This document shows positions 26,695 through 49,526 of a stretch of DNA of 64,000 nt, in pieces. A program made the position numbers and the translations under genes. The notes under the pieces were generated by a model. It was not told the DNA's origin. It saw nothing but the letters and a program-made list of their open reading frames with translations, and ran no database searches. The stretch is from Solwaraspora sp. WMMD792 (GTDB lineage: Bacteria > Actinomycetota > Actinomycetes > Mycobacteriales > Micromonosporaceae). The stretch's first letter is position 1. Each line of letters begins with the position of its first letter. The stretch lies in contig NZ_JARUBH010000009.1 of the NCBI RefSeq assembly GCF_029626105.1, positions 6,076,001 through 6,140,000 on the forward strand, given 5' to 3'.

Positions 26695-26743
26695 ACATTG
26701 CCGCACTAGGCAATTTATGGCAACCTCTTGACAAGCTTGGCAC
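26695..26743 (-). promoter_or_regulatory. PKS promoter with TTGCCA direct-repeat array
   Basis: Reverse strand: -35 TTGCCA (26723-26718), 17-bp spacer, -10 CAATGT (26700-26695). GGCAA-type units on the forward strand begin at 26709, 26719, 26730 and 26739; the unit at 26709 lies 8 bp from the -10. The array also faces the divergent P450 gene. Confidence 0.7.
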
Positions 26744-26772
26744 AAAGTTGATCCGACGGGATGGAGAAGAGG

Positions 26773-27990
26773 ATGCGATCCACATCGCACGCCGCTGAGC
26801 CGACCCGGCTGCTGGACGAGCCCGTCTGCCTGCACCGGCTCACCGATCCGGTGCTGCACGCCGAGGGCGACCCGCACCGGGTGTGGCGCTGGATGCGTCA
26901 CCACGCGCCGGTGCTGCGCCATCCCGACGGCGACCTGCCGGCATTCTGGTCGCTGACTCGGTACGAGGACGTCCGAGCGGTCTACCGCGACCCGGAGACA
27001 TTCTCGTCCCGCCGCGGTGTGCTACTGCGCCCCGCCCACCGGGGCGAGGACCCTGGCGGCGGTATGACGCTGGCACTCACGGACCCGCCCCGGCACAGGC
27101 AACTGCGCGCGGTCGTCGCGGGCTGGTTCACCACCCGTTCGGTCCGATGGCTGGAAGAGTCGATGCGTGACTCGGTGCGCGCCATCCTCGCCCGGGTGGT
27201 CGACGAGCCGGTCGTCGACTTCGTGCAGGACGTCGCAGGCCGGCTGTCGATGTATCTGATCGGCTCCATCATGGGCGTTGCGGAACACGACCACGAGAAG
27301 CTGTTCCGCTGGACCAACGAGGCATTCGAGGCGGGTGTCTCGCTGGCCGCGCACCAGGAACTGATGCACTACTTCATCGGATTGATGGAGCGTCGCCTCG
27401 TCGAGCCGGCCGACGACCTGGTCAGTGCCCTGCTCGGCGGCACCATCGACGGTGCCCTGCTCACCGAGGAAGAAGTCCTGCTGAACTGCGAGAACATCGT
27501 TGGTGCCACCGAGAACGGGCGGCTGGCGATCGCTGGCGGAATGGCCGCGTTCCTGGCGCGCCCCGACCAGTGGGAGCGGCTCGGTGCCGATCGGTCTTTG
27601 TTGCCGACGGCCGTCGAGGAGGTGCTGCGGTGGACGTCAAGTGCCACGCACAGCATGCGGACGGCCACCCGGGACTGCGTCATCCGCGATCAGCGGATCG
27701 CGGCCGGTGATCGGGTGGTGCTCTGGGTCGCGTCGGCCAACCGGGACGAAGATGTCTTCGTCAGCCCGGACCACTTCGACATCGGCCGTACCCCCAACCG
27801 TCATCTCGCGCTCGGTATCGGGGAGCACTTCTGCCTGGGCGCCACGCTCGCCCGCGCACAGATGCGGATCCTGTACAGCGAACTGCTGGACCGGATCCGG
27901 CTCATCGAACCGGCCGGTCCGGCGCACCGGGTGCGGTCCATCGCAGTCGCTGGGCCCGAGACGCTGCCGATTCGCCTGACACTGCGGTGA
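26773..27990 (+). CDS. Cytochrome P450 with non-canonical I-helix
   Basis: About 405 aa. Heme-binding loop is LGIGEHFCLGATLAR (Cys ligand), the ExxR helix is AVEEVLRW and the meander HFDIGRTPNRHLA is normal. The I-helix reads ENIVGATENGRLAIAGG, where most bacterial P450s have AG-x-(D/E)-T-T; the usual Thr pair is replaced by Asn-Gly. Such changes occur in biosynthetic P450s with altered oxygen activation. ATG 26773 has GGAG 6 nt upstream; ATG 26761 is an alternative. Divergent from the PKS and tail-to-tail with the NRPS, so it probably tailors the peptide-polyketide. A ferredoxin partner is not encoded nearby. Confidence 0.93.
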   Translation: MRSTSHAAEPTRLLDEPVCLHRLTDPVLHAEGDPHRVWRWMRHHAPVLRHPDGDLPAFWSLTRYEDVRAVYRDPETFSSRRGVLLRPAHRGEDPGGGMTLALTDPPRHRQLRAVVAGWFTTRSVRWLEESMRDSVRAILARVVDEPVVDFVQDVAGRLSMYLIGSIMGVAEHDHEKLFRWTNEAFEAGVSLAAHQELMHYFIGLMERRLVEPADDLVSALLGGTIDGALLTEEEVLLNCENIVGATENGRLAIAGGMAAFLARPDQWERLGADRSLLPTAVEEVLRWTSSATHSMRTATRDCVIRDQRIAAGDRVVLWVASANRDEDVFVSPDHFDIGRTPNRHLALGIGEHFCLGATLARAQMRILYSELLDRIRLIEPAGPAHRVRSIAVAGPETLPIRLTLR

Positions 27991-30900
27991 TCAGAGCGTG
28001 CGGATCCGCTCGCCTATTCGCTTGCTCATCTCTTCGACGGTCGACTCGGCGATCACGTCGCGCCGGAAGTACAACGTCAGCCGCAACCCGCCGTCCTCGC
28101 CCGGCCAGATCTCCGCGTGCAGTTCCAGCGGCAGGTCAAGATAGGGCTGGCGGACGAAGGTGGTCCGGGCACCCTCCAGTGCGAGTTCCCCGGGCGCGTT
28201 GTCCTGCACGGCGAAGAGGGTCTGGAACAGTGGTGGTCGGCTGCCGCCGGGCAGATCGAGCAGTCGCAACATGTCCTGAAACGTCACGTCCTGTGCCGAG
28301 AACGCCGCTGCGAAGTCGCGCTGGGCCGCCCGTAGGGCGCCCGGTCCCTCACCGAGCGCTGCGCCGCGCAGCCGCAGGCACAGCATCGCGATGTGGCACC
28401 CGACGGCGAGCTCCGAGCGGGCTCCGTGCCGCTGGGCGACCGGGATGCCCACGGCGAAGTCCCGCTGCCCGGTGACCTCGGCGAGAGAGACCGCGTAGTG
28501 GTGCAGCAACGCCGCGAATCGGCTGACACCAGCGGCTTTGGCTTCGGCGTCAACTGCGGCCACCATGTCCGGCTCGATGGATACCTCGACGAGGCCGGTG
28601 CCGGCGACCTGATCCGGTCCGGGCGAGACCGGCCAGTGCAGGGACGGCACCCGGGCGAGCTCGATCCGCAACCTTTCACGCTGGTCCACCAGGCCGCTCA
28701 TCGCGAGCCGCTCGATGTAGTCGCCGTAGGCGCGGGCCAGTGCCGGCGGCGCGGGCTGGTCCGGCGGCGGCGCACCACGCCGGGCGGCGTTGTACGCCGC
28801 CGCCAGGTCCCGTGCGAGCACCGACTCCGACCAGCCGTCGAACGCGATGTGATGCACGACGATCCCGAGCACGGTCGCGTCCCCGGCCGGTGACACGGCC
28901 ACCCGCCACACATCCGCATCCTCAATCAGCAGCCCGCTGGTGAAGAGCGCACGCAACGCCGCGATGGCGGCTGGCACGGACGGCTGCGCTGGCAGTCTCT
29001 CCAGCGGCGGCGGGTCGACCTCGGTGATCCGTGCCATCGGCCGGGGATCGCCCAGGTAGGCCGCGCGCAGCGGCTCATGCCGGGCGTGCGTCGCGGCGAT
29101 CGCGGACTCGAGCGCCTCGTGGTCGAGCTCGCCGTCGATCACCCAAGTCAGCAGACAGTGCGAGGTCAGGTCCGTCGGGTCGAGCAGATGCCGGGTCAGG
29201 AAGATCAGCTGCATGGGCGTGAGCGGGACGACGCCCACCTCGGCGTCGCCGGTGTCCGCCGGTGCACCGGTGTCCGCGCGTGCATCGGAGTCCGCGCGTG
29301 CACCGGGGTCGGCTCCTTGCAGCCAGCCGGCCAGCCCGGTGACGGTCGGATGGTCGAGGAGCTGGGCGAGCGGGACCGGCCGTTCCAGCCGATCTGCCAG
29401 GCGCGCGCAGACCCGGCCCATGTCCAGCGAGCTACCGCCCAGGTCGCTGAGGGACACGTCCAGCGGCACCCCGGTGCGGCCCAGCACTTCGGCGAAGACC
29501 TCGGCGACGACCACAGCCATCCCGGCCGGCCGCTCGCCGTGCCCGTTACCGGCGGCATGGCGACCGGCGGGGACGGCGCGTGACAGGAGAGCCCGTTCGT
29601 CGAGCTTGCCCTGCGGCGTCACCGGAAAGGCGGTGATCGTCCGGATCTCGGCGGGCAACAGATAGGCGGGAAGCGCCTCACGTAGTACCGGCAGCGCCTC
29701 TCCGAGCGGGTCATCCGGCTGCTCTGGCACACACCAGGCGATCAGCCGAGGCTCAGCGCCGCCGGTGCGGTCGACCACCACCCGGCAGGAGCGTACCGGT
29801 AGCAGGGCGATGATCCTGCGCTCGATCTCCGCCGGCTCGATGCGATGGCCGCGGATCTTCACCTGCCGGTCGGCGCGCCCACGGAAGTGCAGCAGCCCGC
29901 TGGCGTCCCGGACCCCGAGGTCGCCGGTGCGGTACGCACGTACCTCCTGGTCGCCGACCCGGATCGTCACGAACTTGCGCGCGGTCTGCTCCTCGTCACC
30001 GACGTAGCCCAGCGCCAGCCCGGTGCCGGTGAGGCAGATCTCGCCGATCTCGCCGTCCGCGCACGGCCGGCTGCCATCAAGGAGGTGCACCCCGGTCTCC
30101 GGGACGGGACGGCCCAGCGGCACCCCGTCCGGGTGTTCGGCGTCGGCCAGTGAGATCCGGTGGGTGGTGGCGAACACGGTGCACTCCACCGGACCGTATC
30201 CGTTGAGTAGGACGACGCCGGGGTGGCGGCGCAGAAACCGGCCTACGTGGGTGGGTGAGAGACGTTCTCCACCGATCATCAGCAGGCGTAGCCCGGCGAA
30301 CGCATCTGGGTCCTCATCGACCAGCATATTGAACAGGCTGCTGGTCAGCCAGGTGGTGGAAACTCCGTGCCGGCGGATGCCGTCGCGCAGCCCGTCGGCG
30401 GTCAGGTACGGCTCCGTGACGATCACCGAGGTGCCGCCGTTGGCGAGTGCCGCCCACAGTTCCAGGGAGAACGCGTCCCATGGCGCCGGCGCGGCCAGCG
30501 GGATCACAGTGTTTTCGTCGAAGGTGGCGAAGGTGTCGACCGCGAAGAGCCGGGCGGTGGCGCGGTGGGGTGTGAGCACGCCTTTCGGACGTCCGGTGGT
30601 TCCCGAGGTGAAGAACACACAGCACGCCGTGTCCCCACTGACTTCGGCGGGCCGGAATCCGGACGGTGCGGCTGCCTCGTTCACCGGAGGTGTCCACACC
30701 GGAAGGTCGGGCCCGGCGACCGGTTCGGCGGCGATCAGCAGCGGCGCGTGGAGCACTGCGGTGACCTCCCGCAGGCGTGCTGCGGGCCAAGCCGGGTCCA
30801 GCAGCGCATAGGCGGAACCTGTCTTGAGTACTGCGAGGAGAGCGAGCACGAGGTCCGTCCCGCGTGGCAGGACGATCGGCACCTGATGGCCCGCGGTCAC

Positions 30901-31143
30901 GCCCTCGGCAGCGAGCCGGGCGGCCCAGGCGTTCGCCGTGGCGTCCAGCTCGCGGTAGCTGATGTGGCGATCCTCGGCGACCAGCGCCGTGGACCCGGGC
31001 CGGCACCGGGCTGTCCGGGCCACCCGCTGGTGCAGGCCCTCGTCGAGACGGGCGGGCCCCACCGGCGGTATCGGATTGGTCTGCACGGAAGGCCTCCCGT
31101 CGGCTGGCGACACATCTGCATGGCTAGCGCCAACCTCTGCCAT
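27991..31143 (-). CDS. Non-ribosomal peptide synthetase, A-T-C
   Basis: About 1050 aa. Adenylation: FFTSGTTGRPKGVL (A3), NGYGPVECTVFA (A5), YRTGDLG (A7), QVKIRGHRIEPAEIE (A8), TPQGKLD (A10). By-eye alignment to PheA gives pocket residues D-A-L-W-M-G-G-V-F-K; I do not assign a substrate. Carrier: DLGGSSLDMG. Condensation: VVHHIAFDGWS with intact HHxxxDG. There is no thioesterase; the C-terminal C domain must act with a carrier on another protein, most simply the A-T protein at 41354. ATG 31143 has GGTGA upstream, but a TTGCCA palindrome with a possible -10 ending at the ATG may mean a later start. Follows the XRE-TPR regulator by 33 bp. Confidence 0.95.
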   Translation of the reverse strand: MAEVGASHADVSPADGRPSVQTNPIPPVGPARLDEGLHQRVARTARCRPGSTALVAEDRHISYRELDATANAWAARLAAEGVTAGHQVPIVLPRGTDLVLALLAVLKTGSAYALLDPAWPAARLREVTAVLHAPLLIAAEPVAGPDLPVWTPPVNEAAAPSGFRPAEVSGDTACCVFFTSGTTGRPKGVLTPHRATARLFAVDTFATFDENTVIPLAAPAPWDAFSLELWAALANGGTSVIVTEPYLTADGLRDGIRRHGVSTTWLTSSLFNMLVDEDPDAFAGLRLLMIGGERLSPTHVGRFLRRHPGVVLLNGYGPVECTVFATTHRISLADAEHPDGVPLGRPVPETGVHLLDGSRPCADGEIGEICLTGTGLALGYVGDEEQTARKFVTIRVGDQEVRAYRTGDLGVRDASGLLHFRGRADRQVKIRGHRIEPAEIERRIIALLPVRSCRVVVDRTGGAEPRLIAWCVPEQPDDPLGEALPVLREALPAYLLPAEIRTITAFPVTPQGKLDERALLSRAVPAGRHAAGNGHGERPAGMAVVVAEVFAEVLGRTGVPLDVSLSDLGGSSLDMGRVCARLADRLERPVPLAQLLDHPTVTGLAGWLQGADPGARADSDARADTGAPADTGDAEVGVVPLTPMQLIFLTRHLLDPTDLTSHCLLTWVIDGELDHEALESAIAATHARHEPLRAAYLGDPRPMARITEVDPPPLERLPAQPSVPAAIAALRALFTSGLLIEDADVWRVAVSPAGDATVLGIVVHHIAFDGWSESVLARDLAAAYNAARRGAPPPDQPAPPALARAYGDYIERLAMSGLVDQRERLRIELARVPSLHWPVSPGPDQVAGTGLVEVSIEPDMVAAVDAEAKAAGVSRFAALLHHYAVSLAEVTGQRDFAVGIPVAQRHGARSELAVGCHIAMLCLRLRGAALGEGPGALRAAQRDFAAAFSAQDVTFQDMLRLLDLPGGSRPPLFQTLFAVQDNAPGELALEGARTTFVRQPYLDLPLELHAEIWPGEDGGLRLTLYFRRDVIAESTVEEMSKRIGERIRTL

Positions 31144-31152
31144 GTTGTCACC

Positions 31153-31172
31153 GGTTGCCAAGAGTGGCAACC
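31153..31172. promoter_or_regulatory. TTGCCA palindrome upstream of the A-T-C NRPS
   Basis: GGTTGCCA-AGAG-TGGCAACC is a perfect 8-bp inverted repeat in the 33-bp gap between the regulator stop and the NRPS start. It is the inverted version of the hexamer used as direct repeats elsewhere in the cluster. On the reverse strand TTGCCA, 17 bp, CAACAT could also be an internal promoter. Confidence 0.65.
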
Positions 31173-31176
31173 CCGG

Positions 31177-32442
31177 TCAGCGGGCACCCGTTCCGGCAGT
31201 GGTTTGGGAGATGTCCTGGGTCACCGTCTCGGCGATGGTGCGCCAGACCTCTGCTGCGAGTTCCGGGTTGCGCGCCTCCTGCGCCTGCTGCGCGAGGTCC
31301 TTCAGTGTGCGCACGCCGTGCTCGTGGTCGCCGTCGAGGATGCGCAGCCGGCAGCACAGCGCCTGAAACCGGATGCGGTCCCGGAACGACAGCAGCAGCG
31401 CCTGCCCGTCGATCTGCGCGCAGATCGCTCGAGCCTCGTCCAGTCGGTCCTGCTTGACGGCGAGGTGGGCGCGCAGTGCGGTCAGCTGTTGGGCGTGCAG
31501 CTCGGTGCCGACCACCCGTAGCACCGGGGTGACCTCGTCCAGCAGCGCCTGCGCGGGTTCGGTGAGGGCGGGAGTGAGCTGGAGATAGAGGGAAGCCGCC
31601 GCGAGTCGTAGCCGGATCCACCGGAGCAGGTCCTGGCGGCCGTCGAGCCCGAGCAGCGCACGCTCGAGCAGATCCTGGGCGGCTCGATAGTCGCCCTGTC
31701 GGATGCGGACAGTGGCCGCCGCCCACAGCGCCTCGACCTGCAGCGTGCCCGCCGCCTGCTCGGTCAGTCTGCAGAGCTGGTCGGCATGGGTCCATGCCTC
31801 GGTCAGCCGGCCGAGCTCAGCCTCTGCGGAAACCAGTGCGTGCAGGGCACCGGCCCGGTCCGCCACCGACAGGCCCTCGGCGGCCTGCCACGCCGTCATC
31901 GCGTGCTTGCGGGCCGACTCGTTGTCGCCGAGCAGGCGCATACAGCGGGACAGCTGGATGTACGCCCGGGCCCGCAGCTGCGGCGCACCCAGCTCGTCGC
32001 TGAGCTGGGTCAGCTCGGTGAGCAGGGTGAGCTCCTCGTCGTGGCGACCCTTGCCGTTCAAGGTGCGGGCCAGTAGCCACAACGCCTGCCAGCGCAGTGC
32101 CGGGTCCCAGCTGTCGGTGTCGTGCAGCGCCTCGGCGAGTTGCTCGGTCGTTCCGTCGTCAGCGGAGGTGGAGATAGCCTCGGCGAGGAACTGGAGGAGC
32201 GACGAAGTCTGCGTGGACGGTGGGCCGGACCCGCCGACCGAGGGCGCTGCCAGCTCAGCGACCGGCACGCCGAGCCGCTCCGCCAGGTACCCGACGATCC
32301 GGCTGTTCGGCCGGCGGGCGCCCGACTCGAGACGGGAGAGATACCCGGTGGACATCCCGTCGCCGGCCAGGGCAGCCTGCGAGAGCCCTCGCTTGACGCG
32401 CATGGCCCGCAGGTGTTCGCCGAAAGCCGGTTGTTCGAGCAT
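31177..32442 (-). CDS. XRE-family regulator with TPR sensor region (paralogue 1)
   Basis: About 421 aa. Residues 1-70 are an XRE helix-turn-helix: LRAMRVKRGLSQAALAGDGM, STGYLSRLESGARRPNSRIV. From ~110 to the end are TPR-like helical repeats (DPALRWQALWLLARTLNGKG, ARAYIQLSRCMRLLGDNESA, VEALWAAATVRIRQGDYRAA), the architecture of peptide-sensing RRNPP-type regulators, although a peptide ligand is not shown here. ATG 32442 gives MLEQPAFGEHLR, matching its paralogue at 36235. Upstream of, and possibly co-transcribed with, the NRPS at 27991. Likely cluster-situated regulator. Confidence 0.87.
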   Translation of the reverse strand: MLEQPAFGEHLRAMRVKRGLSQAALAGDGMSTGYLSRLESGARRPNSRIVGYLAERLGVPVAELAAPSVGGSGPPSTQTSSLLQFLAEAISTSADDGTTEQLAEALHDTDSWDPALRWQALWLLARTLNGKGRHDEELTLLTELTQLSDELGAPQLRARAYIQLSRCMRLLGDNESARKHAMTAWQAAEGLSVADRAGALHALVSAEAELGRLTEAWTHADQLCRLTEQAAGTLQVEALWAAATVRIRQGDYRAAQDLLERALLGLDGRQDLLRWIRLRLAAASLYLQLTPALTEPAQALLDEVTPVLRVVGTELHAQQLTALRAHLAVKQDRLDEARAICAQIDGQALLLSFRDRIRFQALCCRLRILDGDHEHGVRTLKDLAQQAQEARNPELAAEVWRTIAETVTQDISQTTAGTGAR

Positions 32443-32635: not shown

Positions 32636-33769
32636 TCACAACCCCAAGCGGTTCAGGAGATCGGCCGACGAGCCGGTGAACTGACGCGTGGCGAGCCGGT
32701 CGGCGGCCTGGGCGAAGGCGGGCCGCTGGTCGAGGAACCGCCGTAGCTGGTCGGCCGAGAGCTCTCGGCCGCCATGAACACCGATCCCGCAGTGGTCCAG
32801 CATCATCGCGTTGAACTGCTGCTCGTAGACGTCGAACGGCAGTGCCAGGACCGGCTTGCGTAGGTACAGGCACTCGGACAGCAGTTGGTGACCAGCAGTG
32901 GCGACCACCGCTGAGCAGGTGCGTAGTGCCTCGGTGAACTTCGGACGGTCGAAGAGGGACGTGACCACGTTCTGCGGTGCGTCACCGATCGGCGTCTTGC
33001 TGAAGACAGTGAACGTCACCTCCGGGAAGCCGGCGAGCACGCGAAGGAACTCGGCGGGCTCCTGGCGCATCGCGGCGTACGGCGACAGGTAGACGACCAC
33101 GGAGGTCCCGTCGACCTCGGGCGTCATCGACAACACGTCCGGGCGCAGGATCGGCTCGATGACCTGACCCTCGTACCGCTCGTCACGCTCCCACTCCAGC
33201 GGAAAGAACGAGGAGGCGATCCGGTCGTCCGCGGCCGGGAAGAAGTACCTCAACTTGGCCGCCTCGTGCCAGCGGGTGTAGCCGCCGGCGTCTGGCGTGC
33301 GGTACAACAGGAACTTGCTCTGCTGCTCGGTCGTGATCAGGCGAGCACCCACCAGGTAGGCGATCTGCGCGCTGGCTGGCTCGTAGTCGGTCAGCACCAC
33401 CTCGGGCGCGTCGCCAAGCTGCTCGGCGACCTGCTCGCAGAGGGCGAAGTTCCAGGCATCGCCCCGCGGGTCGAGCTCCCGTCCGTTGGCGGCGCTGCGG
33501 GTGATGTCGATGCCGGTCGGCGTCATCGCGACCCAGCCGCCGGGGAAGTGGGTGGGTTCGGCGATGGGCACGTGGGAGGGGAAGGCGTCGTTGAGAGCGG
33601 CGACCCCGTCGCCGAAGGTGACCAGGGCCACTCGATGTCCGCGTTCCTGCAGCTGACGCACCAGGTTCAGCTGGCGCGAGGCGTGCCCGTTGCCCATCCC
33701 GCAGGCGCCGACGAGCACCCGCCGGGTCGGTGCGGCGGGTGCCTGCGCGGGACGGCCGGCGTCGGTCAT
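32636..33769 (-). CDS. GT-B fold glycosyltransferase
   Basis: About 377 aa. N-terminal Rossmann: VLVGACGMGNGHASRQLNLV, RQLQERGHRVALVTFGDG. C-terminal donor site: VVATAGHQLLSECLYLRKPV, LALPFDVYEQQFNAMML, DHCGIGV. This is the UDP-glycosyltransferase/MurG-like layout and should transfer an NDP-sugar to a small-molecule acceptor in the cytoplasm. ATG 33769 has GAGAGG upstream. Divergent from a GT2; its promoter contains three TTGCCA-type units in a perfect 10-bp register. Confidence 0.87.
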   Translation of the reverse strand: MTDAGRPAQAPAAPTRRVLVGACGMGNGHASRQLNLVRQLQERGHRVALVTFGDGVAALNDAFPSHVPIAEPTHFPGGWVAMTPTGIDITRSAANGRELDPRGDAWNFALCEQVAEQLGDAPEVVLTDYEPASAQIAYLVGARLITTEQQSKFLLYRTPDAGGYTRWHEAAKLRYFFPAADDRIASSFFPLEWERDERYEGQVIEPILRPDVLSMTPEVDGTSVVVYLSPYAAMRQEPAEFLRVLAGFPEVTFTVFSKTPIGDAPQNVVTSLFDRPKFTEALRTCSAVVATAGHQLLSECLYLRKPVLALPFDVYEQQFNAMMLDHCGIGVHGGRELSADQLRRFLDQRPAFAQAADRLATRQFTGSSADLLNRLGL

Positions 33770-33805
33770 GAGGAGTCCTCTCGTGAGTCGGCGGATGACC
33801 CGTTT

Positions 33806-33844
33806 AGTCTGCACAGCTAGGCAAATTTTGGCAACCTGTGGCAA
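33806..33844 (-). promoter_or_regulatory. GT-B promoter with three TTGCCA units
   Basis: Reverse strand: -35 TTGCCA (33834-33829), 17 bp, -10 CAGACT (33811-33806). GGCAA units start at 33820, 33830 and 33840, exactly 10 bp apart; the first is 8 bp from the -10. Same geometry as the PKS and second NRPS promoters. Confidence 0.72.
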
Positions 33845-33880
33845 AGTTGGGTTGGTGAGGGTGCGTGCGGCTCGTTGGAG

Positions 33881-40597: not shown

Positions 40598-40607
40598 GGC
40601 GCTCCTC

Positions 40608-41357: not shown

Positions 41358-43273
41358 GCCCGCACCCGCCGGGCCCGCGCGGCTCGGGCGCGCTCCACGA
41401 CCGCCTGACGCGGGTCGTCGACCGGCCCGGCATCGGTGCCACCACGTCCGATCAGCTCCGCCTGGGCTGCCACCGTGGTGTGCCGGAACAGCGCCACCAC
41501 GGACGGCCGCGTCCCGGTGCGCCGCTCCAACGCGCCCTGCAGCTGGAACATGGTCAGTGAGTGGCCACCGAGGTCGAAGAAGTTGACGTCGACCGGGACG
41601 TCGGCGACCTTCAGCACCTCAGCCCATGCCGCGGCGACCTGGGCGGTGGCGCCGTCACGGGTGGGCTGAGCCGTCGGCGCCGGGGTCGGGTGTGCGGCGT
41701 ACCGGCGTAGTGCCTCACGGTCCACCTTGCCGTTGACGGTGAGCGGGAACTCCGGTACGACGTGGATCCGGGCGGGCACCATGGCCGCCGGCACCTGCCG
41801 GGACAACTCCAGGCGTACGCTCTCCGCGCTCACCGCTTGATCCGCGACCACGAATGCCTCCATCGCGGTCCGCGTTTCGTCGGGCAGGACCGCAGCGTCC
41901 CGTACGCCGGGCACGGCCCGCAGCGCGGAGTCCACCGCGCCCAGTTCCACCCGGTGCCCGCGGATCTTGATCTGATCGTCGCGGCGGCCCAGGAAATCCA
42001 GCGTTCCCTCGTCGTTCCAGCGCGCCATGTCGCCGGTCCGGTACATGCGCGCGCCGGGCGTCGCGTCGAACGGGTCGGGCAGGAACGCCTTCTCTGTTGC
42101 CTCTGGTTGGCCGAGGTAGCCGTTAGCGACGCCGGCACCGCCTACGAACAGCTCGCCCTCGACGCCACGGCCGACCGGGCGCAGGTCGTCGTCCAGCACA
42201 TATACCCGGCCACCGGGGATCGGACCGCCGATGCTGACCGGGGCCGGCCCGGTGAACCGCCGGTACGTGGCCCAGACGGTCGCCTCCGTCGGTCCGTACT
42301 CGTTGACCAGGTAAACCCGGGAGCCGTGCGTGGCGAAATGGCGGCGCAGGAGAGTTTCGGGCAGCGCCTCGCCAGCGGTGATGACGGTGTCCAACGACTG
42401 CAGGGCGTCCGGGCCGGCACGGTCGGCGGCGTCGAGCAGCACCGCGTACAGCGACGGGACGCAGAGCAGGTGCGTCACCCGGCGGTGACCCACCAGGCGG
42501 ACCAGACGCTCCGGGTCGCGCACCTCGTCGGCTGCTGCTACGACCAGACGGCCGCCAGCGCTCAGGGTTCCCCAGATCCCGGCGATCGAGGAGTCGAAGG
42601 CCAGCGGCGAGACGAGCAGGAAGGCTGGCGCACCCGGGTAGACGAGGCGGCGGGCCGCCGTGGAAGCGGCCAGTTGGCCGTGGGTGACGAGCACACCTTT
42701 GGGTTCGCCGGTGCTCCCGGAGGTGTAGATGACATAGGCGGGATCGTCGGCTCTGGCTTCGGCCGCCGGCCCCGGCTGTGGGGCCGGCTCCGGACGGTGG
42801 GCGACCACGAGCGGCCGGCCGACCGCTCGAAGCCGTGGCTCGGTGGCCGGGCTGGTCACGACGGCGGCGACGGCGGCGTCGGCGAGAACCGCCGCCACCC
42901 GTAGGTCGGGCTGCGCAGGGTCGATCGGCACATAGGCGGCACCGGCCCGCCAGACGGCCAGGACGGCGGCCACCATGGCGACCGACGGCTCCATCACCAC
43001 GGCGACGGTGTCGCGGTTGCCGACGCCTGTGGCGGTGAGCCGTGCGGCGAGAGCCGCCGCCCAATCGTCGAGGGCGCGGTAGCTGAGGCTGTCGGACTCG
43101 CCCTGCACCGCGGTGGCGTGAGGGTGGGCGCGGACGTGTTCGTCGACCGACTGGGGCAGGAGCGGCGGCGTTCCGGGAAGCGCTGCGGCCAGGCCGTGCG
43201 GCCGTGGGTCGTCCGGAGTGCGTCCTGGCCGATTTTTGGTGATCAACGGTTGGGAGGGCACTGCATACGCCAT
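41354..43273 (-). CDS. Non-ribosomal peptide synthetase, A-T didomain
   Basis: About 639 aa. Adenylation: YVIYTSGSTGEPKGVLVTHG (A3), NEYGPTEATVWA (A5), YRTGDMARW (A7), QIKIRGHRVELGAVD (A8), TVNGKVDR (A10). Carrier: DLGGHSLTMFQLQ. No C domain. By-eye pocket residues are D-S-A-L-I-A-E-V-W-K; the Glu at the 322 position would suit a basic or amino-bearing side chain, but the substrate is not assigned. It may supply the acceptor amino acid for the C domain of the 27991 protein. ATG 43273 has GGGGGAG upstream. Promoter carries a four-unit TTGCCA array. Confidence 0.95.
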   Translation of the reverse strand: MAYAVPSQPLITKNRPGRTPDDPRPHGLAAALPGTPPLLPQSVDEHVRAHPHATAVQGESDSLSYRALDDWAAALAARLTATGVGNRDTVAVVMEPSVAMVAAVLAVWRAGAAYVPIDPAQPDLRVAAVLADAAVAAVVTSPATEPRLRAVGRPLVVAHRPEPAPQPGPAAEARADDPAYVIYTSGSTGEPKGVLVTHGQLAASTAARRLVYPGAPAFLLVSPLAFDSSIAGIWGTLSAGGRLVVAAADEVRDPERLVRLVGHRRVTHLLCVPSLYAVLLDAADRAGPDALQSLDTVITAGEALPETLLRRHFATHGSRVYLVNEYGPTEATVWATYRRFTGPAPVSIGGPIPGGRVYVLDDDLRPVGRGVEGELFVGGAGVANGYLGQPEATEKAFLPDPFDATPGARMYRTGDMARWNDEGTLDFLGRRDDQIKIRGHRVELGAVDSALRAVPGVRDAAVLPDETRTAMEAFVVADQAVSAESVRLELSRQVPAAMVPARIHVVPEFPLTVNGKVDREALRRYAAHPTPAPTAQPTRDGATAQVAAAWAEVLKVADVPVDVNFFDLGGHSLTMFQLQGALERRTGTRPSVVALFRHTTVAAQAELIGRGGTDAGPVDDPRQAVVERARAARARRVRA

Positions 43274-43321: not shown

Positions 43322-43371
43322 AGGCTAAGCGATCTGGCAAATTTTGGCAATCTCTGACAAGCATCTGGCAA
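43322..43371 (-). promoter_or_regulatory. A-T NRPS promoter with four TTGCCA units
   Basis: Reverse strand: -35 TTGCCA (43350-43345), 17 bp, -10 TAGCCT (43327-43322). Forward-strand units TGGCAA 43335, TGGCAA 43345, TGACAA 43355, TGGCAA 43366 (steps 10, 10, 11). The first GGCAA is 8 bp from the -10. Confidence 0.75.
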
Positions 43372-43385
43372 GTGCTGTACGTGAT

Positions 43386-43440: not shown

Positions 43441-43629
43441 TCACGGCCAGTCGATGTCGGAGGCGACCGTCGATGGGGCCGAGGTGGCCGTATTCGCGCC
43501 CAGCGTGCCGGTCAGGGCTCCGAGGGCGAGGCAGGCGACCGCGCCGAGGGCGGCTATCCGTAGCAAGGTGGGCGAGGTGGGCGAGGTGGGTCGACGGTCG
43601 ACGAGGCGTGCGGGGTTGCGATGCGACAT
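43441..43629 (-). CDS. Small secreted-looking peptide (62 aa), possible signal peptide precursor
   Basis: 62 aa. A basic, Pro/Ser/Thr-rich N-terminus (MSHRNPARLVDRRPTSPTSP) is followed by one hydrophobic segment (LLRIAALGAVACLALGALTG) and a short exported tail ending SAPSTVASDIDWP. GGGAG lies 8 nt before the ATG, and promoter-like and terminator-like signals flank the gene, so it looks real. Size and layout resemble precursors of secreted peptide signals, and two XRE-TPR proteins of peptide-sensor architecture are in the same cluster. That link is inference; it may instead be a small membrane protein. No cluster hexamer array precedes it. Confidence 0.6.
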   Translation of the reverse strand: MSHRNPARLVDRRPTSPTSPTLLRIAALGAVACLALGALTGTLGANTATSAPSTVASDIDWP

Positions 43630-43860: not shown

Positions 43861-45162
43861 TTAGCCGAAAGTCGGTGACTCGACCGGCTCGGAGGCGGCT
43901 ACGCTGATTTTGTCGCCATCCAGAAAAAGATCATCTAGAAATGCGTTCCGGAACTTGCCCGGGAAGTCAAGGTGCCGCATCAGCTCCGCGAAGTCGGCGG
44001 CGCGCGGGTAGCCCGCGACGATGTCGGGCCCGGCCAGGGTGGTCAGCTTGGCCCAGTGCGGCCGAGCGTCGAAGGGTCGCAGCGCTTTCTCCACCTCGGC
44101 GAGGACCGGGAGCACCGCAGGCCAGTTTCTGACCCAGGTGAAGTGCACCGTCACCGAGTCACGACGGTAAGCTGGGCTGAGCCACAGGTCGTCGGCACGT
44201 ACCGTACGGATCTCGGCGATCTGCAGGACCGGCGCCAGCTGCTCGGCGAGACCACGCACCGCGGACAGCGCAGCCGAGGCGTGGTCGCGCGATACGTAGA
44301 ACTCTGACTGGAGTTCGTCCCCCGAGCCCGGCATGAACTCCGGGCGAAAATGTGGCAGACGCTCGTGCCACGGGCCCGGCCGATCCAGTTGCTCCGTGCT
44401 GAACTCCGGCGAGACTCCGTCGACCGGGTGCATCGGCCGCTCGGCGTGCCGACCGCCGTTCCAGCCCGACTCCGCCCATCCGGCGCGACGCTTACGCCAG
44501 ACCGAGCCCTCCTCGCTGTGCCACGTGGTGAAGACGCTGACGCTGTAGGCCGAACTGAAGACTGCGTCCAGCTCGCCGATGATCTCGTCGAGCGGAACGC
44601 CGACGTGCACCTGCTGGCTCATCTCAAAGGCTGGCTCGACGTCCAGGGTCAGCGCCGTGACCACACCGAGCGCGCCCAGGGCGACGACGCATCCTCCGAA
44701 GATCCGGTCCTCGTCCCGCCGCAGCTCGCGCAGCTCGCCGTCTGGGCCCACCAGTTGCAGGCCCCGTACGGCGGCGGCGAGGCAGCGCAGCGTGTCTCCG
44801 GAACCGTGTGTTCCCGTCGCGCAGGAGCCGGCCACCGAGATGTGTGGCAACGAGGCCATGTTCGACAGCGCGTATCCCGCCCGATGCAGCTCCGCGGCCA
44901 CCTCCGCGTACCGCATCCCCGCGCTGACAGTGACGGTCCGGTTCCGCTCGTCCAGGCTCAGCACCGTCGGCAGGCTGTCCAACCGGATCAGATCGTGCGT
45001 GGTGTCCGCGATCAGGCTGAACGAGTGCCCGCTGCCCAGGGCCCGGATCCGAGGTATGCCGGCGACCAACCGCCGTACCTCGTCGATGGTGTCTGGCTGA
45101 TGGATCCGGGCCGCGCCGAAGACGACCGAGCCAGCCCAGTTCGTGAGTCCCTGCGTCTGCAC
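43861..45162 (-). CDS. FAD-linked alditol/aldonolactone oxidase-like enzyme
   Basis: About 433 aa. VAO/PCMH flavin fold: RIRALGSGHSFSLIADTTHD, ASLPHISVAGSCATGTHGSG (FAD loop), GALGVVTALTLDVEP. The start NWAGSVVFGA and the C-terminal RPHWAKL motif resemble alditol oxidase (AldO, xylitol oxidase) more than gulonolactone oxidases. These use O2 to oxidise a sugar alcohol or sugar hydroxyl. GTG 45162 has GGAGGTGA upstream and lies 3 bp after the deacetylase stop, so the two enzymes probably act on the same sugar. Confidence 0.87.
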   Translation of the reverse strand: MQTQGLTNWAGSVVFGAARIHQPDTIDEVRRLVAGIPRIRALGSGHSFSLIADTTHDLIRLDSLPTVLSLDERNRTVTVSAGMRYAEVAAELHRAGYALSNMASLPHISVAGSCATGTHGSGDTLRCLAAAVRGLQLVGPDGELRELRRDEDRIFGGCVVALGALGVVTALTLDVEPAFEMSQQVHVGVPLDEIIGELDAVFSSAYSVSVFTTWHSEEGSVWRKRRAGWAESGWNGGRHAERPMHPVDGVSPEFSTEQLDRPGPWHERLPHFRPEFMPGSGDELQSEFYVSRDHASAALSAVRGLAEQLAPVLQIAEIRTVRADDLWLSPAYRRDSVTVHFTWVRNWPAVLPVLAEVEKALRPFDARPHWAKLTTLAGPDIVAGYPRAADFAELMRHLDFPGKFRNAFLDDLFLDGDKISVAASEPVESPTFG

Positions 45163-45165
45163 GGC

Positions 45166-46188
45166 TCACCTCCCGCCGGTGACGAACTCGTCGGCCGCGA
45201 CGAACCGGAAGGAACGTTCCAGTAGGCCCTCGATGATGCGGGGCAGGGCCGCCACGACCTGTGACCGGTCCCCGCCGCCGTCGTGGAGCAGGACGATCGA
45301 GCCGTTGCGGGTGGTGTCGAGCACGCGTTCGGCGATGATCTCGGTGCCGGGCATGGCCCAGTCGACCGGTTCGACGTCCCACAGCACCATCGTGGAGTCG
45401 ACCGGCCGTAGCCACTCGAGTACCTCCGGGGTGCGCGAGCCGTACGGCGGGCGGAACAGCCTAGGCGCCGCGCCGGTCGCCTTCTCGATCGTCTCGTTCG
45501 TCCGCTCCAGCTGTTCCAGCAGCTGGTGCCGGGCCAGCTCGGGCAGGAACGGGTGGGACCAGGTGTGGTTTCCGACGGTGTGTCCCTCGTCGATCATCCG
45601 GTGCAGCAGATCGGGGTGAGCCGCGGCGTTCATCCCGACACAGAAGAACACCGCGGGAACCTGAAAGCGGCGCAGCACGTCGAGGATCTGGGCGGTGTAC
45701 CCGGGCGCGGGGCCGTCGTCGAAGGTCAGCGCCAGGGTGGGCCGCCCCCGGTCGCCGTGGGTCACGCAGCGGTGCTTGTCGACCATCGCGGCGAGCGCAG
45801 CGGCGCTGGCCTGTTCGTCGCGCCGCAGCACGTGCTCCCGGCCGGTCTGAGTGCCGCGGGTGGGGTCGAGCCTGACCAGACTTCCGAGGTCACGCCAGGC
45901 GGCGCGGGCGAGCACATCGGCGGGCACCGAGCCGAAGTCGGGTCGCGGTGGCAGCAGATGCGGGTCTGCGCGGTACACGACGAGGCCGGCCGCCATCATC
46001 CGGCCGTCCAGAATGCCGTTGGTGCTGTCCACCACGACCGCAGGTGCGCCGATCGTGTGCAGTCGATCGATCATGGCGTCGACGTCGGCGGCGTTGAACC
46101 AGGCCGGCGCGGCCACCGGTTCGCCTGTGTCGTCCAGTACGGCGAGGCGATATCCATCGCCACTCCAGGAGACTCCTGCGTAGGGCAT
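45166..46188 (-). CDS. NodB-type polysaccharide deacetylase with an extra N-terminal domain
   Basis: About 340 aa. Residues ~145-335 are a NodB domain: LALTFDDGPAPGYT (metal Asp pair), GNHTWSHPFLPEL (HxxxH), RLFRPPYGSRTPE, IVLLHDGGGDRS. It should remove N-acetyl groups from a sugar. The N-terminal ~110 residues (MPYAGVSWSGDGYRLAVLDD, PAVVVDSTNGILDGRMM, VVYRADPHLLPPRP) are not part of NodB and look RNase-H-like, vaguely recalling IS110-type transposase N-termini. No signal peptide, so it acts in the cytoplasm, unlike most family members. ATG 46188 follows GGAGG. Confidence 0.9.
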   Translation of the reverse strand: MPYAGVSWSGDGYRLAVLDDTGEPVAAPAWFNAADVDAMIDRLHTIGAPAVVVDSTNGILDGRMMAAGLVVYRADPHLLPPRPDFGSVPADVLARAAWRDLGSLVRLDPTRGTQTGREHVLRRDEQASAAALAAMVDKHRCVTHGDRGRPTLALTFDDGPAPGYTAQILDVLRRFQVPAVFFCVGMNAAAHPDLLHRMIDEGHTVGNHTWSHPFLPELARHQLLEQLERTNETIEKATGAAPRLFRPPYGSRTPEVLEWLRPVDSTMVLWDVEPVDWAMPGTEIIAERVLDTTRNGSIVLLHDGGGDRSQVVAALPRIIEGLLERSFRFVAADEFVTGGR

Positions 46189-46265: not shown

Positions 46266-46316
46266 ACGTTGCCACCGGAGTTCCTGTTTGGCAACTAGGA
46301 TGGCAAGTTTTGGTAA
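46266..46316 (-). promoter_or_regulatory. Deacetylase/oxidase operon promoter with TTGCCA units
   Basis: Reverse strand: -35 TTGCCA (46294-46289), 17 bp, -10 CAACGT (46271-46266). Units on the forward strand: TGGCAA 46289, TGGCAA 46301, TGGTAA 46311. An opposite-facing TTGCCA lies at 46269. Here the extra units lie upstream of the -35 rather than between -35 and -10. Confidence 0.6.
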
Positions 46317-46351: not shown

Positions 46352-47242
46352 TCAGGCGACCGCCGCAGCCAGCGTCCGTCGAGCGGTGTCGGCCATCACC
46401 GGATTGGTGTGCTGGTAGTAGGGGAGCGCCATGATCGCTTGCGCGACGGCCCAGCCACGGCCGCGTTCCCAGGTCAGATCATCCACCCGCAGCGCGGAGC
46501 GGTACGCCCGTCGCCCTTCGTCGTCCAGCAGGTTCCACGCCGGCATGAGGTCGACTGCGGGATCGCCGATTCCGGCCGAACCGAGGTCGAGCACGGCGGC
46601 CAGCCGGCCCTCGCGCAACAGCAGGTTGCCGGGCATCAGGTCGGCGTGGATCCACACGTCCGGGGTGTCATGCCTGCCGGTGGCGAGGCACTGCCGCCAG
46701 ACCTCTGCTACCCGGCGCACGTCGACGAGCCCGGCGCTGTCGGCGAGCGCGCCATCGACGGACTCGGCCAGCCGGGTGAGCGGGCCACCACGCCCGCGGC
46801 CTTGCCAGGTGCGCCCGCCGGTATCCATGCTCTGCAACTCACCGACGAACCGGGCGAGATCGCGAGCGAGCTCCAGCTGGTCGACGCCGGTGCCCGGTTC
46901 TACGGTGTCACCGGGGATCCACCCGTACGCTGTCCACCATCCGGAATAGCCGGCGGCGGGCCGGCCGACCGCGAGCGGCTCGGGCACGAGCAGTCGGGTG
47001 TGCCGGGCGATCAGGCGCGCGAGGTCCTGCTCGTGCTCCAGCGACGCCCGTGCGGTGGCGCCCGGGTCGGGGCGGAGCGGGAACCGCAGGACGACATCGT
47101 CGCCCAGCCGGAACAGGGCGTTGACCGTGCCGTGCGAGGTCACCGGCCGGACGGGGAGGTCTCGCCACCGGGGGAACTGTTCGGCGACGAGGCAGGCCAC
47201 GTCCGCCACCGTGATGTCCACTTGGTCGGCATGCATCCGCAC
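46352..47242 (-). CDS. Aminoglycoside phosphotransferase-family kinase
   Basis: About 296 aa. APH fold: VVLRFPLRPD region of the N-lobe, catalytic loop VWIHADLMPGNLLLREG (HxDxxxxN) and AVLDLGSAGIGDPAVDLMPA (metal Asp). ATP-dependent phosphorylation of a hydroxyl on a sugar or antibiotic is expected. In this cluster it could be a self-resistance kinase, or a biosynthetic step that protects or activates an amino sugar. ATG 47236 is an alternative start 6 nt in. Confidence 0.87.
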   Translation of the reverse strand: MRMHADQVDITVADVACLVAEQFPRWRDLPVRPVTSHGTVNALFRLGDDVVLRFPLRPDPGATARASLEHEQDLARLIARHTRLLVPEPLAVGRPAAGYSGWWTAYGWIPGDTVEPGTGVDQLELARDLARFVGELQSMDTGGRTWQGRGRGGPLTRLAESVDGALADSAGLVDVRRVAEVWRQCLATGRHDTPDVWIHADLMPGNLLLREGRLAAVLDLGSAGIGDPAVDLMPAWNLLDDEGRRAYRSALRVDDLTWERGRGWAVAQAIMALPYYQHTNPVMADTARRTLAAAVA

Positions 47243-47316
47243 GCTGTCAGCGCTCCCTTCGACACGGTCGCGATCACTGGTAGTGTGTTGATGGTCACGG
47301 GTGGTGCGGGTGCCCG

Positions 47317-48192
47317 TCAGTCAGCCGCAGTCGCAGCCGCTCGGGCCGCGGCCACGGTCTCCCGCTGCTTCCAGTTGGAGACGCCGCCCAGGTAGTACCG
47401 TACGGTCGCCGCGCCGGTGGAGAAGATCGGCACGTCGTTGCTCACCAGCCTGCCGAGAAGTTTGTCGTCGGGCGCGACGTTGTTGGCGTGGTCCTCCTCG
47501 GTGAACTCCTCTGGGATTGGCAGGCGCAGCAGCAGTTCGCGGCGCAGCAGCCAGACGCTCTGGTCGACGGTCATGATCGGATCATCGGGACCGGTGACCG
47601 TGCTGGGACGGAACGAGGCGCTGCGAATGCCGGGATCGGCACGGTCCATCACGACGTTCGACCCCGGGAAACGGACGCCCCGGTCCACCATGAGCTGATA
47701 GAGCCGCCGGCCCTCCTCGTACGTGAACGAGGTGTGCCACACCTCATCGGTGTACGGCGTGCCGTCGGCGTTCCACATGGTGCGTCCGGAGTGCACCGCG
47801 TCGGCGCCCGTCTGCCGTGCGAGGTCGCGCAGGCTGCTCAGGTGGTGCGGCTCGAACTCGTTGTCGTCGTCGAGAAAGGCGATCCACTCGGCAGACGAGA
47901 TCCGCGCACCGGTGTTGAACAGCCGGGACAGCCGCGGATAGACGAAGCGCCGGTCACGCGGCGGCTCCTCGCGCTCCTGTGGTGAGCGCTCGACCAGGTG
48001 CGCGACGGTGCGCCGTCCGGGGGCTGTCGGGGCTGACTCCACCACCGCCACTGACTCCGGATCATCGTCGATGACGATGATGTGCTCGATGTCACCCGGG
48101 TAGTCCTGGGCGAGGACGGAGGCCATCGCGCGGCGCAGCATCTGGTGGCGGTGCCGGGTCAGTGTCACGACGCCGATCGGGTCTGGCGACAT
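47317..48192 (-). CDS. Family 2 glycosyltransferase
   Basis: About 291 aa. GVVTLTRHRHQMLRRAMASV at the start, IIVIDDDPESVAV, NTGARISSAEWIAFLDDDNE with the DDD metal site, and DRGVRFPGSNVVMDRADPG with SVWLLRRELL for the acceptor side. GT-A fold, likely inverting, cytoplasmic. Its C-terminus is Ala-rich. It lies between a second GT2 and the APH kinase, all on one strand, with a three-unit repeat array upstream. Confidence 0.85.
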   Translation of the reverse strand: MSPDPIGVVTLTRHRHQMLRRAMASVLAQDYPGDIEHIIVIDDDPESVAVVESAPTAPGRRTVAHLVERSPQEREEPPRDRRFVYPRLSRLFNTGARISSAEWIAFLDDDNEFEPHHLSSLRDLARQTGADAVHSGRTMWNADGTPYTDEVWHTSFTYEEGRRLYQLMVDRGVRFPGSNVVMDRADPGIRSASFRPSTVTGPDDPIMTVDQSVWLLRRELLLRLPIPEEFTEEDHANNVAPDDKLLGRLVSNDVPIFSTGAATVRYYLGGVSNWKQRETVAAARAAATAAD

Positions 48193-48225
48193 CGGAGTCC
48201 CCTTTCAGGACGGAAGTCGTGTCTT

Positions 48226-48251
48226 ATGCCAAATTTTGCCAAAAGTTGCCT
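48226..48251. promoter_or_regulatory. Three-unit TTGCCA array between two glycosyltransferase genes
   Basis: Forward strand ATGCCA 48226, TTGCCA 48236, TTGCCT 48246, exactly 10 bp apart. The orientation relative to the downstream gene (48192, reverse strand) is opposite to that at the PKS and NRPS promoters, and no -10 matches, so it may be an operator only. Confidence 0.6.
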
Positions 48252-48263
48252 GAGTCGTCAACG

Positions 48264-49415
48264 TCAGCTGCCGGACGGCGACGGTGTCTCCACCCGACGG
48301 GCCACCCGGGCAGCCTCCGCCAGCACCATGTCCCGGAAACGCTCACCCAGCCGCAGTACGCGCGGCAACACCCGACATTCAGCCAGGTCGCCATCGGCAT
48401 AGGGCAGGGCGAGGCCGATCAGCGGCGTCACCTGTCGCGGAGTCCCCGGGTCGAGCACGTCCTCCACCGGTTCGCCGGCCTCGTCCAGCGCCAGGCCCAC
48501 CACCAGGACATCGACGCCGTTTGCGGTGCCGCGGGCAACGCCCAGCGACTGGCCCGCGCCGTCGAGCGCGGTGCTTACCTCGGCGCGGAGCGCGCCAATC
48601 TCACGGTTGGCCACCCAGGAGTCGCTGGCCCGGAACAACTCGACGTCGGGCCGAGGCCATTTCGCCAGGAAACGAGCCTTGTTGGTCGCGAAGGCCGCGA
48701 AGTTGATCTCCGCGTCGCGGGCATGCGGCAGATGCAGGCCGCAGAGGTCCGTGCCGAGCAGGATCGGTGTGTCGGTGGCGGCAATTCGGTAGCCCCACTC
48801 CTGGTCCTCGGCACCCCAGCCGCAGAAGTCCTCGTCGAAGTAGATTCCGTGCCGGCGTACGACGTCACCGGAGATGGCGACGAAACCGGTCCATACCATC
48901 GTCCAAGGCAGCGTCACCGGCTCGAACCGCCAGCGAGGGTCCTCCCGCAGCCCGGTCGTCGCATCCAGTCGGGCGAGCACGGCGCGGTGGCGACTGAACG
49001 GCGCGGCGGCCACCGCCTCGGTCGTCGAGAAGTTGTCGTAGCCGATCAACTGCCCGACCACGCACCGGGCAGTCCCGTCGGCGAAATACCGGCGATGCAT
49101 CGACTCTAGACAGCGGGGCGGGAGCATGACATCGGCGTCGAGGAGTACGACCACGTCGCCGGACGCTTGCCGCAGCGCGATGTTGCGGGCGTGGCTGGTG
49201 TTCCAGGGCCGCTCCACCATCACGGTCGCGATGTCGAGGTGGCGGGCGTACTCCTGGCACAGCCGCAGGTAGCCGTGGTCGTACCCGATCGCCCCGACGA
49301 CGACCTCGAAACGGGCGCGGTCGAGCGTCTGTTCGGCGAGGGACGCGAACACCATGCGCACGTTGTCGAGGCGCTGCTTGTAGGGGATCACGATGCTGAT
49401 CAGTGGGGTGCCCAT
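48264..49415 (-). CDS. Family 2 glycosyltransferase
   Basis: About 383 aa. GT-A: LISIVIPYKQRLDNVRMVFA, VERPWNTSHARNIALRQASG, VVVLLDADVMLPPRC, and the late acceptor motif FDEDFCGWGAEDQEWGYR (AED). A ~90-residue C-terminal extension is not part of the core fold. ATG 49415 lies 6 nt after a CAATAT -10, so the mRNA is probably leaderless. Acceptor unknown; presumably a sugar of the cluster product. Confidence 0.86.
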   Translation of the reverse strand: MGTPLISIVIPYKQRLDNVRMVFASLAEQTLDRARFEVVVGAIGYDHGYLRLCQEYARHLDIATVMVERPWNTSHARNIALRQASGDVVVLLDADVMLPPRCLESMHRRYFADGTARCVVGQLIGYDNFSTTEAVAAAPFSRHRAVLARLDATTGLREDPRWRFEPVTLPWTMVWTGFVAISGDVVRRHGIYFDEDFCGWGAEDQEWGYRIAATDTPILLGTDLCGLHLPHARDAEINFAAFATNKARFLAKWPRPDVELFRASDSWVANREIGALRAEVSTALDGAGQSLGVARGTANGVDVLVVGLALDEAGEPVEDVLDPGTPRQVTPLIGLALPYADGDLAECRVLPRVLRLGERFRDMVLAEAARVARRVETPSPSGS

Positions 49416-49421
49416 ACCGGC

Positions 49422-49450
49422 ATATTGCCCAATCTGGCAAAGATAGGCAA
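49422..49450 (-). promoter_or_regulatory. GT2 promoter with TTGCC pair, leaderless geometry
   Basis: Reverse strand: -35 TTGCCT (49450-49445), 17 bp, -10 CAATAT (49427-49422), and GGCAA (49436-49440) 8 bp from the -10. The ATG at 49415 falls at the expected transcription start. Confidence 0.7.
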
Positions 49451-49481
49451 CACGAGCGGGGGCAGGCAGCGCGAGCGAGGG

Positions 49482-49526
49482 TTGCCAGATGGCAAAACTG
49501 TTGCCAAACTTGCTCGATGGTTTGCC
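49482..49526 (+). promoter_or_regulatory. TTGCCA repeats upstream of the PhyH-like gene
   Basis: TTGCCA 49482, opposite TGGCAA 49490, TTGCCA 49501, TTGCT 49510, TTGCC 49522. The first two form a palindrome with a 2-bp centre. No convincing -10 was found downstream. Confidence 0.5.

Follow-up and report, generated by a model that had tools for sequence, protein, structure and literature searches.

The gene cluster and its intergenic arrays

A stretch of 64,000 nucleotides from Solwaraspora sp. WMMD792, a member of the Micromonosporaceae, (hereafter the window) was analysed for the TTGCCA repeat arrays that lie between the genes of a biosynthetic cluster and for the two XRE-TPR regulators encoded in the same cluster. 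The cluster spans approximately 23.1-51.4 kb of the window, in a genome of 7.4 Mb, and contains a KS-AT-ACP polyketide synthase (PKS), A-T-C and A-T nonribosomal peptide synthetases (NRPSs), a thioesterase, a P450, TauD- and PhyH-like oxygenases, sugar-type enzymes, four glycosyltransferase genes, an APH-like gene and an MFS transporter. The gene order is PKS (23730..26651, minus strand), cytochrome P450 (26761..27990, plus), A-T-C NRPS (27991..31170, minus, start codon unsure), XRE-TPR regulator 1 (31177..32442, minus), GT-B glycosyltransferase (32636..33790, minus, start approximate), GT2 glycosyltransferase (33875..34879, plus, true start probably near 33980), MFS transporter (34876..36111, plus), XRE-TPR regulator 2 (36235..37458, plus), TauD-like dioxygenase (37507..38400, minus), a protein with squalene-hopene-cyclase-like repeats (38496..39545, plus), esterase-like and thioesterase genes (39617..41357, minus), A-T NRPS (41354..43273, minus, start placed by eye at the ATG after the array), a 62-amino-acid open reading frame (ORF) (43441..43629, minus), sugar-lactone-oxidase-like and polysaccharide-deacetylase-like genes (43861..46188, minus), and the APH-like, GT2a and GT2b genes (all minus) with the PhyH-like gene (plus) at 46352..50493.

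A sequence-only reading of this DNA had listed seven TTGCCA-like arrays, and all of them are present in the window sequence. The array between the PKS and P450 genes (26695..26743) consists of TTGCC-N5-TTGCC-N6-GGCAA and degenerate copies, and reads as a promoter on the minus strand (TTGCCA-N17-CAATGT) and on the plus strand (TTGCCG-N17-CAACCT). Three direct half-sites with the -10 CAGACT on the minus strand (33806..33844) separate the divergent GT-B and GT2 gene runs, which hold the two regulators, one on each side (operons inferred from gene order). Further arrays lie between the TauD-like gene and the gene with squalene-hopene-cyclase-like repeats (38416..38465), before the A-T NRPS gene (43322..43371; -35 TTGCCA, -10 TAGCCT), before the polysaccharide-deacetylase-like gene (46269..46316), before GT2a (48226..48264; the plus reading is the strict pattern and the minus reading TTGACG-N17-CAAAAT), before GT2b on the minus strand (49422..49450; three half-sites, -35 TTGCCT, -10 CAATAT) and before the PhyH-like gene on the plus strand (49482..49526). 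Absent from the earlier list was a candidate operator at the junction of regulator 1 and the A-T-C NRPS (31145..31180; TTGTC-N5-TTGCC-N6-GGCAA, one mismatch to the three half-site pattern), and so was the bidirectional reading.

The layout proposed earlier (-35 TTGCC(A/T), second copy 10 bp on, 8 bp to nAnnnT, total spacer 17 bp) is exact at the four promoters named for it (26723, 33834, 43350 and 49450, all minus) and at a fifth site on the plus strand (48236); by our own reading the arrays at 38416-38465 and 46289-46316 depart from the strict form. Inverted half-sites also belong to the layout, as TTGCC-N6-GGCAA, and the motif is better written TTGCC-N5-TTGCC-N6-GGCAA, that is, two direct half-sites and one inverted half-site.

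A count over the whole genome found five mismatch-free TTGCC-N5-TTGCC-N8-nAnnnT sites, all five inside the cluster; the counts in six congeners were 0, 0, 1, 0, 0 and 0. The shorter TTGCC-N5-TTGCC occurs at 11 sites genome-wide, six of them in the cluster, and its reversed control at eight. Allowing one mismatch added ten scattered sites against eleven for the reversed control pattern, so only perfect sites carry signal. Half-sites are also unevenly spread over the window: within the cluster TTGCC/GGCAA occurs 32 times per 2708 intergenic bases versus 30 times per 25577 coding bases (gene borders partly set by eye), and in the window beyond the cluster 43 times per 35715 bases. Chance repeats as the origin of the arrays are rejected by the genome-wide count together with the family survey and the upstream enrichment given below.

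Half-site spacing and the -10 box

Half-site spacings were counted in 390 kb of 22 stretches, with L023 and L024 left out and both members of the near-duplicate pairs L019/L020 and L025/L026 kept. Direct half-sites are found at steps of 10 bp (20 pairs), 11 (9), 12 (7), 21 (12) and 31 (8), inverted half-sites at 11 (17), 12 (6) and 21 (10), and everted half-sites at 9 (13), where 0.13-0.29 pairs are expected per spacing, pairs of one array not being independent. The half-sites thus appear helically phased on one face of the DNA in both orientations, as expected if dimeric helix-turn-helix (HTH) proteins stack along it.

The earlier description of 9-12 bp steps with the geometry of SARP (Streptomyces antibiotic regulatory protein) boxes holds for the repeats but not for the geometry, since the main step is 10 bp and not the 11 bp of SARPs. 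According to that alternative, the arrays are bound by a SARP activator, whether that of 12.7-14.4 kb or a different one, and the XRE-TPR genes are passengers or targets. SARP genes do lie near the window cluster and near L018 and L052/L053; the SARPs PimR, SanG and PolR read CGGCAAG repeats with a GGCAA core in the part of the source seen (PMC3367932), and the 8 bp to the -10 is that of SARP promoters in the relevant passage of another (PMC10936776). SARP operators are described as direct repeats in portions of both papers, the former of which also gives PimR a weak 10-bp site. SARP boxes are defined as direct repeats at intervals of 11 or 22 bp with 8 bp to the -10; the arrays agree in the 8 bp, but their main step is 10 and they include inverted half-sites. 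The phased inverted and everted half-sites and the window SARP's distance of 12 kb speak against such a reader, as do the tracking of the XRE-TPR regulator by the operator across 354 genomes and the half-sites before the regulator outside this pathway, both described below. A two-sequence SARP-domain profile detected no SARP in either of two regions that carry the same operator, the 96-kb M. rosaria contig and the 60 kb that surround the regulators of genome G213. On orientation, step, regulator tracking and the operator loci in which this profile detected none, a SARP as array reader was rejected and is considered highly improbable; the repeat goes with the XRE-TPR family, and the name SARP box finds no support.

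Among 25 non-redundant 10-bp direct-repeat sites the T of nAnnnT, the proposed -10 box, is present in 15, and a matching A precedes TTGCC by three bases at other half-sites as well (17/25 and 15/25; 52% of 29 window half-sites), so this T may belong to the half-site and not to sigma recognition. In many sites the proposed -10 CAAnnT is the inverted half-site GGCAAnnT; the -10 boxes at 33834 (CAGACT) and 43350 (TAGCCT) are not half-sites. Since TTGCCA is similar to a -35 and its reverse, GGCAAnnT, to a -10, a promoter can be read in either direction from a three half-site operator, and we read 26695-26723 (divergent PKS/P450) and 48226-48264 (minus, GT2a) as bidirectional promoters.

The two XRE-TPR regulators

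Both regulators, predicted here to be peptide receptors, carry an N-terminal XRE-type HTH (Pfam HTH_31/HTH_3) and neither an OmpR-type HTH nor BTAD in Pfam, in agreement with the earlier view that the local regulators are XRE-TPR proteins and not SARPs. Regulator 1 matches TPR_12 above cut-off; regulator 2 matches only TPR_MalT, below cut-off, and aligns end to end with regulator 1 at 53% identity. The two are paralogues, and no other full-length member of the family was found in the 7.4 Mb genome, where four further matches are weak and confined to the N-terminus. Seven Arg and Trp residues of the TPR half (R114, W115, W237, R245, W272, R274 and R276 in regulator 2) do not vary among 10 sequences. 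The best solved-structure match with both HTH and TPR is PlcR (E 1.5e-8), with ComR after it; PlcR ranked second among all solved structures, behind an HTH-only phage repressor. Upstream TTGCCA per 300 bp, sorted by recognition-helix groups drawn after the data were seen, is 2.5 for STGY (n=19), 2.2 for STAY/STSY/SISY/SAGY (n=6), 0.8 for SAAY/SSAY (n=5) and 0 for distant members (n=7).

Distribution of the operator and the regulator

A contig search for relatives of the regulators found 11 loci, which belong to Micromonospora, Actinoplanes, Actinomadura and Streptomyces, and the four closest all carry the perfect TTGCC-N5-TTGCC-N8-nAnnnT pattern within 10 kb. The 11 genomes behind these loci contain ten perfect sites, and four genomes have none. 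Six of the ten are near the regulator on its own contig (G007, one; G008, three; G009, one; G010, one), another has the full three half-site form but on a contig other than the regulator's (G011 C389), and three look like chance (G011 C665, G015, G016).

Regulator presence in the genome surveys was set at E <= 1e-40. In the class survey of 394 genomes the regulator was found in 11 and the three half-site pattern in four, of which G000 and G213 carry their sites near a regulator. In the family survey of 354 genomes the regulator was found in 25 and TTGCCA-N4-TTGCC-N6-GGCAA in six genomes at nine sites (reversed control, one genome). These six are exactly the genomes whose regulator scores at least 510 bits, the pattern being present in none of the 348 others; the 510-bit line was drawn after the result, and without it the comparison is 6/25 genomes with the regulator versus 0/329 lacking it. 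Operator and regulator lie 0.1-25.5 kb apart in the six genomes, by arithmetic from the coordinates.

Comparison of 300 bp upstream of 40 relatives with 487 control upstreams, with no motif given, revealed TTGCC as the top 5-mer (118 versus 29.1) and TTGCCA as the top, most enriched hexamer (67 versus 11.7). Half-sites per upstream averaged 2.95 in the relatives, as against 0.72 in the controls; for six distant members of the family the mean was 0.33. The same words ranked first in 31 upstream regions from which near-copies and the window itself had been removed (TTGCCA 62 versus 4.7; TTGCC 100 versus 23.1 in shuffles), and at least two half-sites occur in 24/31 of them versus 18% of the shuffles.

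The association is not confined to one pathway. No window biosynthetic protein is shared at >=38% identity over half the length in 20 of 37 close-family loci, and most of these 20 keep half-sites before the regulator, which refutes shared ancestry of one cluster as the sole reason for the motif. In G661 (L062) the operator lies 0.1 kb past the regulator gene, and at the same threshold no biosynthetic gene in 20 kb is shared with the window; hence the operator follows the regulator and not the pathway. The link between motif and regulator is shown by computation, and the proposal that one regulator drives the whole cluster is well supported by the sequence.

A small peptide ORF with a conserved ending

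The ORF at 43441..43629 (minus) resembles a propeptide, with a hydrophobic leader, a C-terminus ...ASDIDWP* and GGGAG shortly before the ATG. Just past its stop lies a GC-rich inverted repeat (43386-43415), likely a terminator without a T run. Around the receptors, small ORFs with a hydrophobic start carry one or more copies of (I/V/L)(D/E/S/G)WP at the C-terminus or close to it. In 20 of 36 loci such an ORF is no more than 2.2 kb from the receptor (near-duplicates included, and four of the 20 counted without an export check), and it lies farther away in the window, L017, L018, L019/L020, L044, L063 and L052, as well as in L027, which is outside the 36.

The strict ending [ILV][DES]WP with a hydrophobic start was found in 13 ORFs in 157 kb around the 36 receptor loci; the two in L025 and L026 (...RLSWP) are antisense to another gene and were set aside as probably spurious, which leaves 11 of 13. 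Elsewhere only three were found in 961 kb (L017, L052 and L102), all of them in regions that contain the gene neighbourhood of the receptor itself, the one in L102 approximately 16 kb from the L019 receptor. In the window one strict-ending ORF occurs among 636 small ORFs. The ending [DNE][IV][DE]WP* occurs 14 times in 1.38 Mb, a count that excludes 29 duplicate loci, and in none of four shuffles. Of the six family genomes with the operator, five (G000, G640, G430, G213 and G710) have an ORF ending ...SDIDWP, and the A. cyaneus contig has one ending ...GSDIDWP. The near relatives L068 and L069 keep the peptide ending at 6/6 positions and the middle at 15/31.

Several propeptides repeat the motif: three copies are present in L045 (8670-8948) and L027 (1886-2233), and two in L046 (5280-5489), L047 (8919-9257), L022, L021 and L052; in the first four of these loci the repeated unit is DIxWP. 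Multi-copy propeptides are reported for some Firmicutes pheromones in the part of PMC11343458 available. Some peptide genes distant from the receptor have TTGCCA half-sites of their own (L052, nine; L101, five; L084, four; L027, three). The residue before WP needs five changes for four states on the receptor tree, with labels set by hand and no shuffled control. Three distant XRE-TPR relatives (L081, L082 and L083) have exported-looking small ORFs ending ...DWPW approximately 1.4-1.7 kb after the regulator start; these may be a second peptide type with another operator.

A proposed peptide-responsive circuit

It is quite likely, judging from sequence, that the TTGCCA arrays are operators of the two XRE-TPR regulators, whose TPR half would sense an exported peptide encoded in the cluster, in a pheromone circuit like that of PlcR and PapR. 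The HTH of the regulators would read the half-site AnnTTGCCA, and several protomers would bind side by side on one helix face, at half-sites about one turn apart and in either orientation. At most cluster promoters such bound arrays would cover the -35 and extend upstream of it, and the array between the divergent gene runs that hold the regulators would also be bound. The propeptide (43441-43629) would be exported and cut near its C-terminus to about (A)SDIDWP, and this end peptide would be re-imported and bound by the TPR half as a pheromone. The ligand-bound receptor would then turn on the polyketide/peptide glycoside pathway once cell density is high.

Activation by the ligand-bound receptor is the most likely mode, because several -10 boxes are weak and the arrays extend upstream of the -35. 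In a variant that is compatible with the circuit and not exclusive of it, the XRE-TPR proteins would be repressors, whose dimers on TTGCC-N6-GGCAA cover the spacer and the -10 until a peptide or a pathway intermediate releases them. The -35 TTGCCA is near consensus (first-copy A in 23/25 sites), and at many sites the inverted half-site overlaps the -10, as repression would lead one to expect; the weak CAAnnT boxes at several biosynthetic promoters and the half-sites that reach upstream of the -35 do not suit it, and PlcR and ComR are activators. Repression is considered possible but less probable than activation, and a dual mode is given the small remainder.

A different ligand would leave the operators in place: the XRE-TPR proteins would read the arrays, but the TPR ligand would be a pathway intermediate or a protein partner, and the DIDWP ORFs something else, for example a ribosomal-product precursor or a small secreted protein. 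The operator evidence indeed stands without the peptide, and 6-11 kb separate the window's peptide gene, which does not have the operator, from the receptors. This alternative does not account for the peptide ORFs within 2.2 kb of the receptor in 20 loci, the ending kept in L068/L069 where the middle is not, the motif repeats inside propeptides or the TTGCCA arrays of some peptide ORFs, and we regard it as unlikely.

A number of observations weigh against the pheromone circuit as a whole. At some promoters a half-site falls within the -10, which argues for repression there, and the PlcR structure match spans only the HTH and the first TPR. Each window regulator has a single half-site upstream, with other genes close before it, and no half-site was found in 300 bp upstream of the regulator in L024, L025, L026, L054, L074 and L077, the L077 match being without its HTH end. 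The strict three half-site pattern was not found in 19 of the 25 family genomes with the regulator or in nine Streptomyces-group members with it in the class sample, and it was found in two of 383 class genomes without the regulator. No credible peptide ORF was identified for L025/L026, L050, L054, L062, L070, L071, L074 and L077. Export was judged by hydropathy alone, the peptide ORFs of L048, L049, L064 and L076 having been added in a scan without a leader test and that of L097 likewise found without one. In 350 bp upstream, the window peptide gene, which belongs to the same cluster as the receptors, has one half-site and no full hexamer, and the peptide genes of L017 and L102 have no half-site.

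Comparison with known regulatory systems

The circuit shares with PlcR-PapR, an RRNPP system of Firmicutes, a receptor of XRE-type HTH and TPR and a nearby small exported-looking propeptide with conserved C-terminal letters. It differs in its occurrence in Actinobacteria, its peptide (S)DIDWP, its operator of phased multiple TTGCCA half-sites over the -35, its presence in natural-product clusters among other places, the two receptors per locus in G000, G213 and G710, and a peptide gene that may lie several kb off. Membership in RRNPP is claimed for the architecture only, and a shared way of working is suggested by analogy. With the SARPs (AfsR; PimR, SanG and PolR at CGGCAAG) it has in common a GGCAA core, a repeat period of about one helix turn, an 8-bp distance to the -10 and control at the level of the pathway, and it differs in its XRE-TPR regulators, main step (10 versus 11), use of both orientations and near-consensus -35. 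MmyB-like regulators such as MltR are also actinomycete, cluster-situated proteins with an XRE-type HTH and pseudo-palindromic boxes, but their sensor is PAS-like with a furan as ligand, as far as the portion of PMC3406030 seen describes them, in place of TPR and peptide. No Pfam match to the PAS-like ligand domain of MltR was found in either regulator at E<=0.001.

Actinobacteria probably possess an RRNPP-like peptide quorum-sensing family of their own, with (S)DIDWP-type pheromones, XRE-TPR receptors and TTGCCA operators, to which natural-product clusters such as that of the window are wired. Among the open-access papers listed in our searches, we found no report of this operator, this peptide or an actinobacterial RRNPP system. 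RRNPP_detector was run on Firmicutes and viruses, with small molecules given as the typical actinobacterial signal, in the section of PMC10075063 at hand, and in the accessible part of a 2026 review (PMC13220807) the RRNPP systems given as examples are from Firmicutes, with gamma-butyrolactones named for Streptomyces. In a 2025 survey XRE-like regulators are linked with terpene clusters, and the portion seen mentions no such circuit (PMC12224297). The cacaoidin cluster has two XRE regulators and a SARP, whose roles are called unknown in the excerpt concerned (PMC8068269).

Cell-density control of actinomycete antibiotics is known through small molecules such as gamma-butyrolactones, and it is mostly from other bacteria that cell-to-cell peptide signalling of this type has been described. 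Together, a receptor, an operator and a family of peptides whose ending can be read make a circuit open to testing. With a synthetic hexa- or heptapeptide it might be possible to activate silent clusters, the operator would let regulons be read from sequence, and clusters of different types would share one recognisable kind of switch.

Other features of the cluster and its surroundings

Among the matches listed, the A-T NRPS has no close relative in the six congeners; no close orthologous NRPS was found in the genus, and no foreign match exceeds 46% identity. EF-G-like GTPases are encoded in the Actinomadura and A. cyaneus clusters (L019 7678-9681 and L018 20583-21221), which hints at a ribosome-directed product; none was found among the scanned window ORFs. 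The SARP of the window (12723-14372, plus) joins Trans_reg_C and BTAD in a single reading frame with an ABATE domain and a CGNR zinc finger, to our knowledge an unusual combination. A tRNA-Lys gene (22493-22567, minus) lies just before the cluster start, and together with a toxin-antitoxin-like pair (21561-22201, judged by eye from the protein starts) it possibly marks an integration edge.

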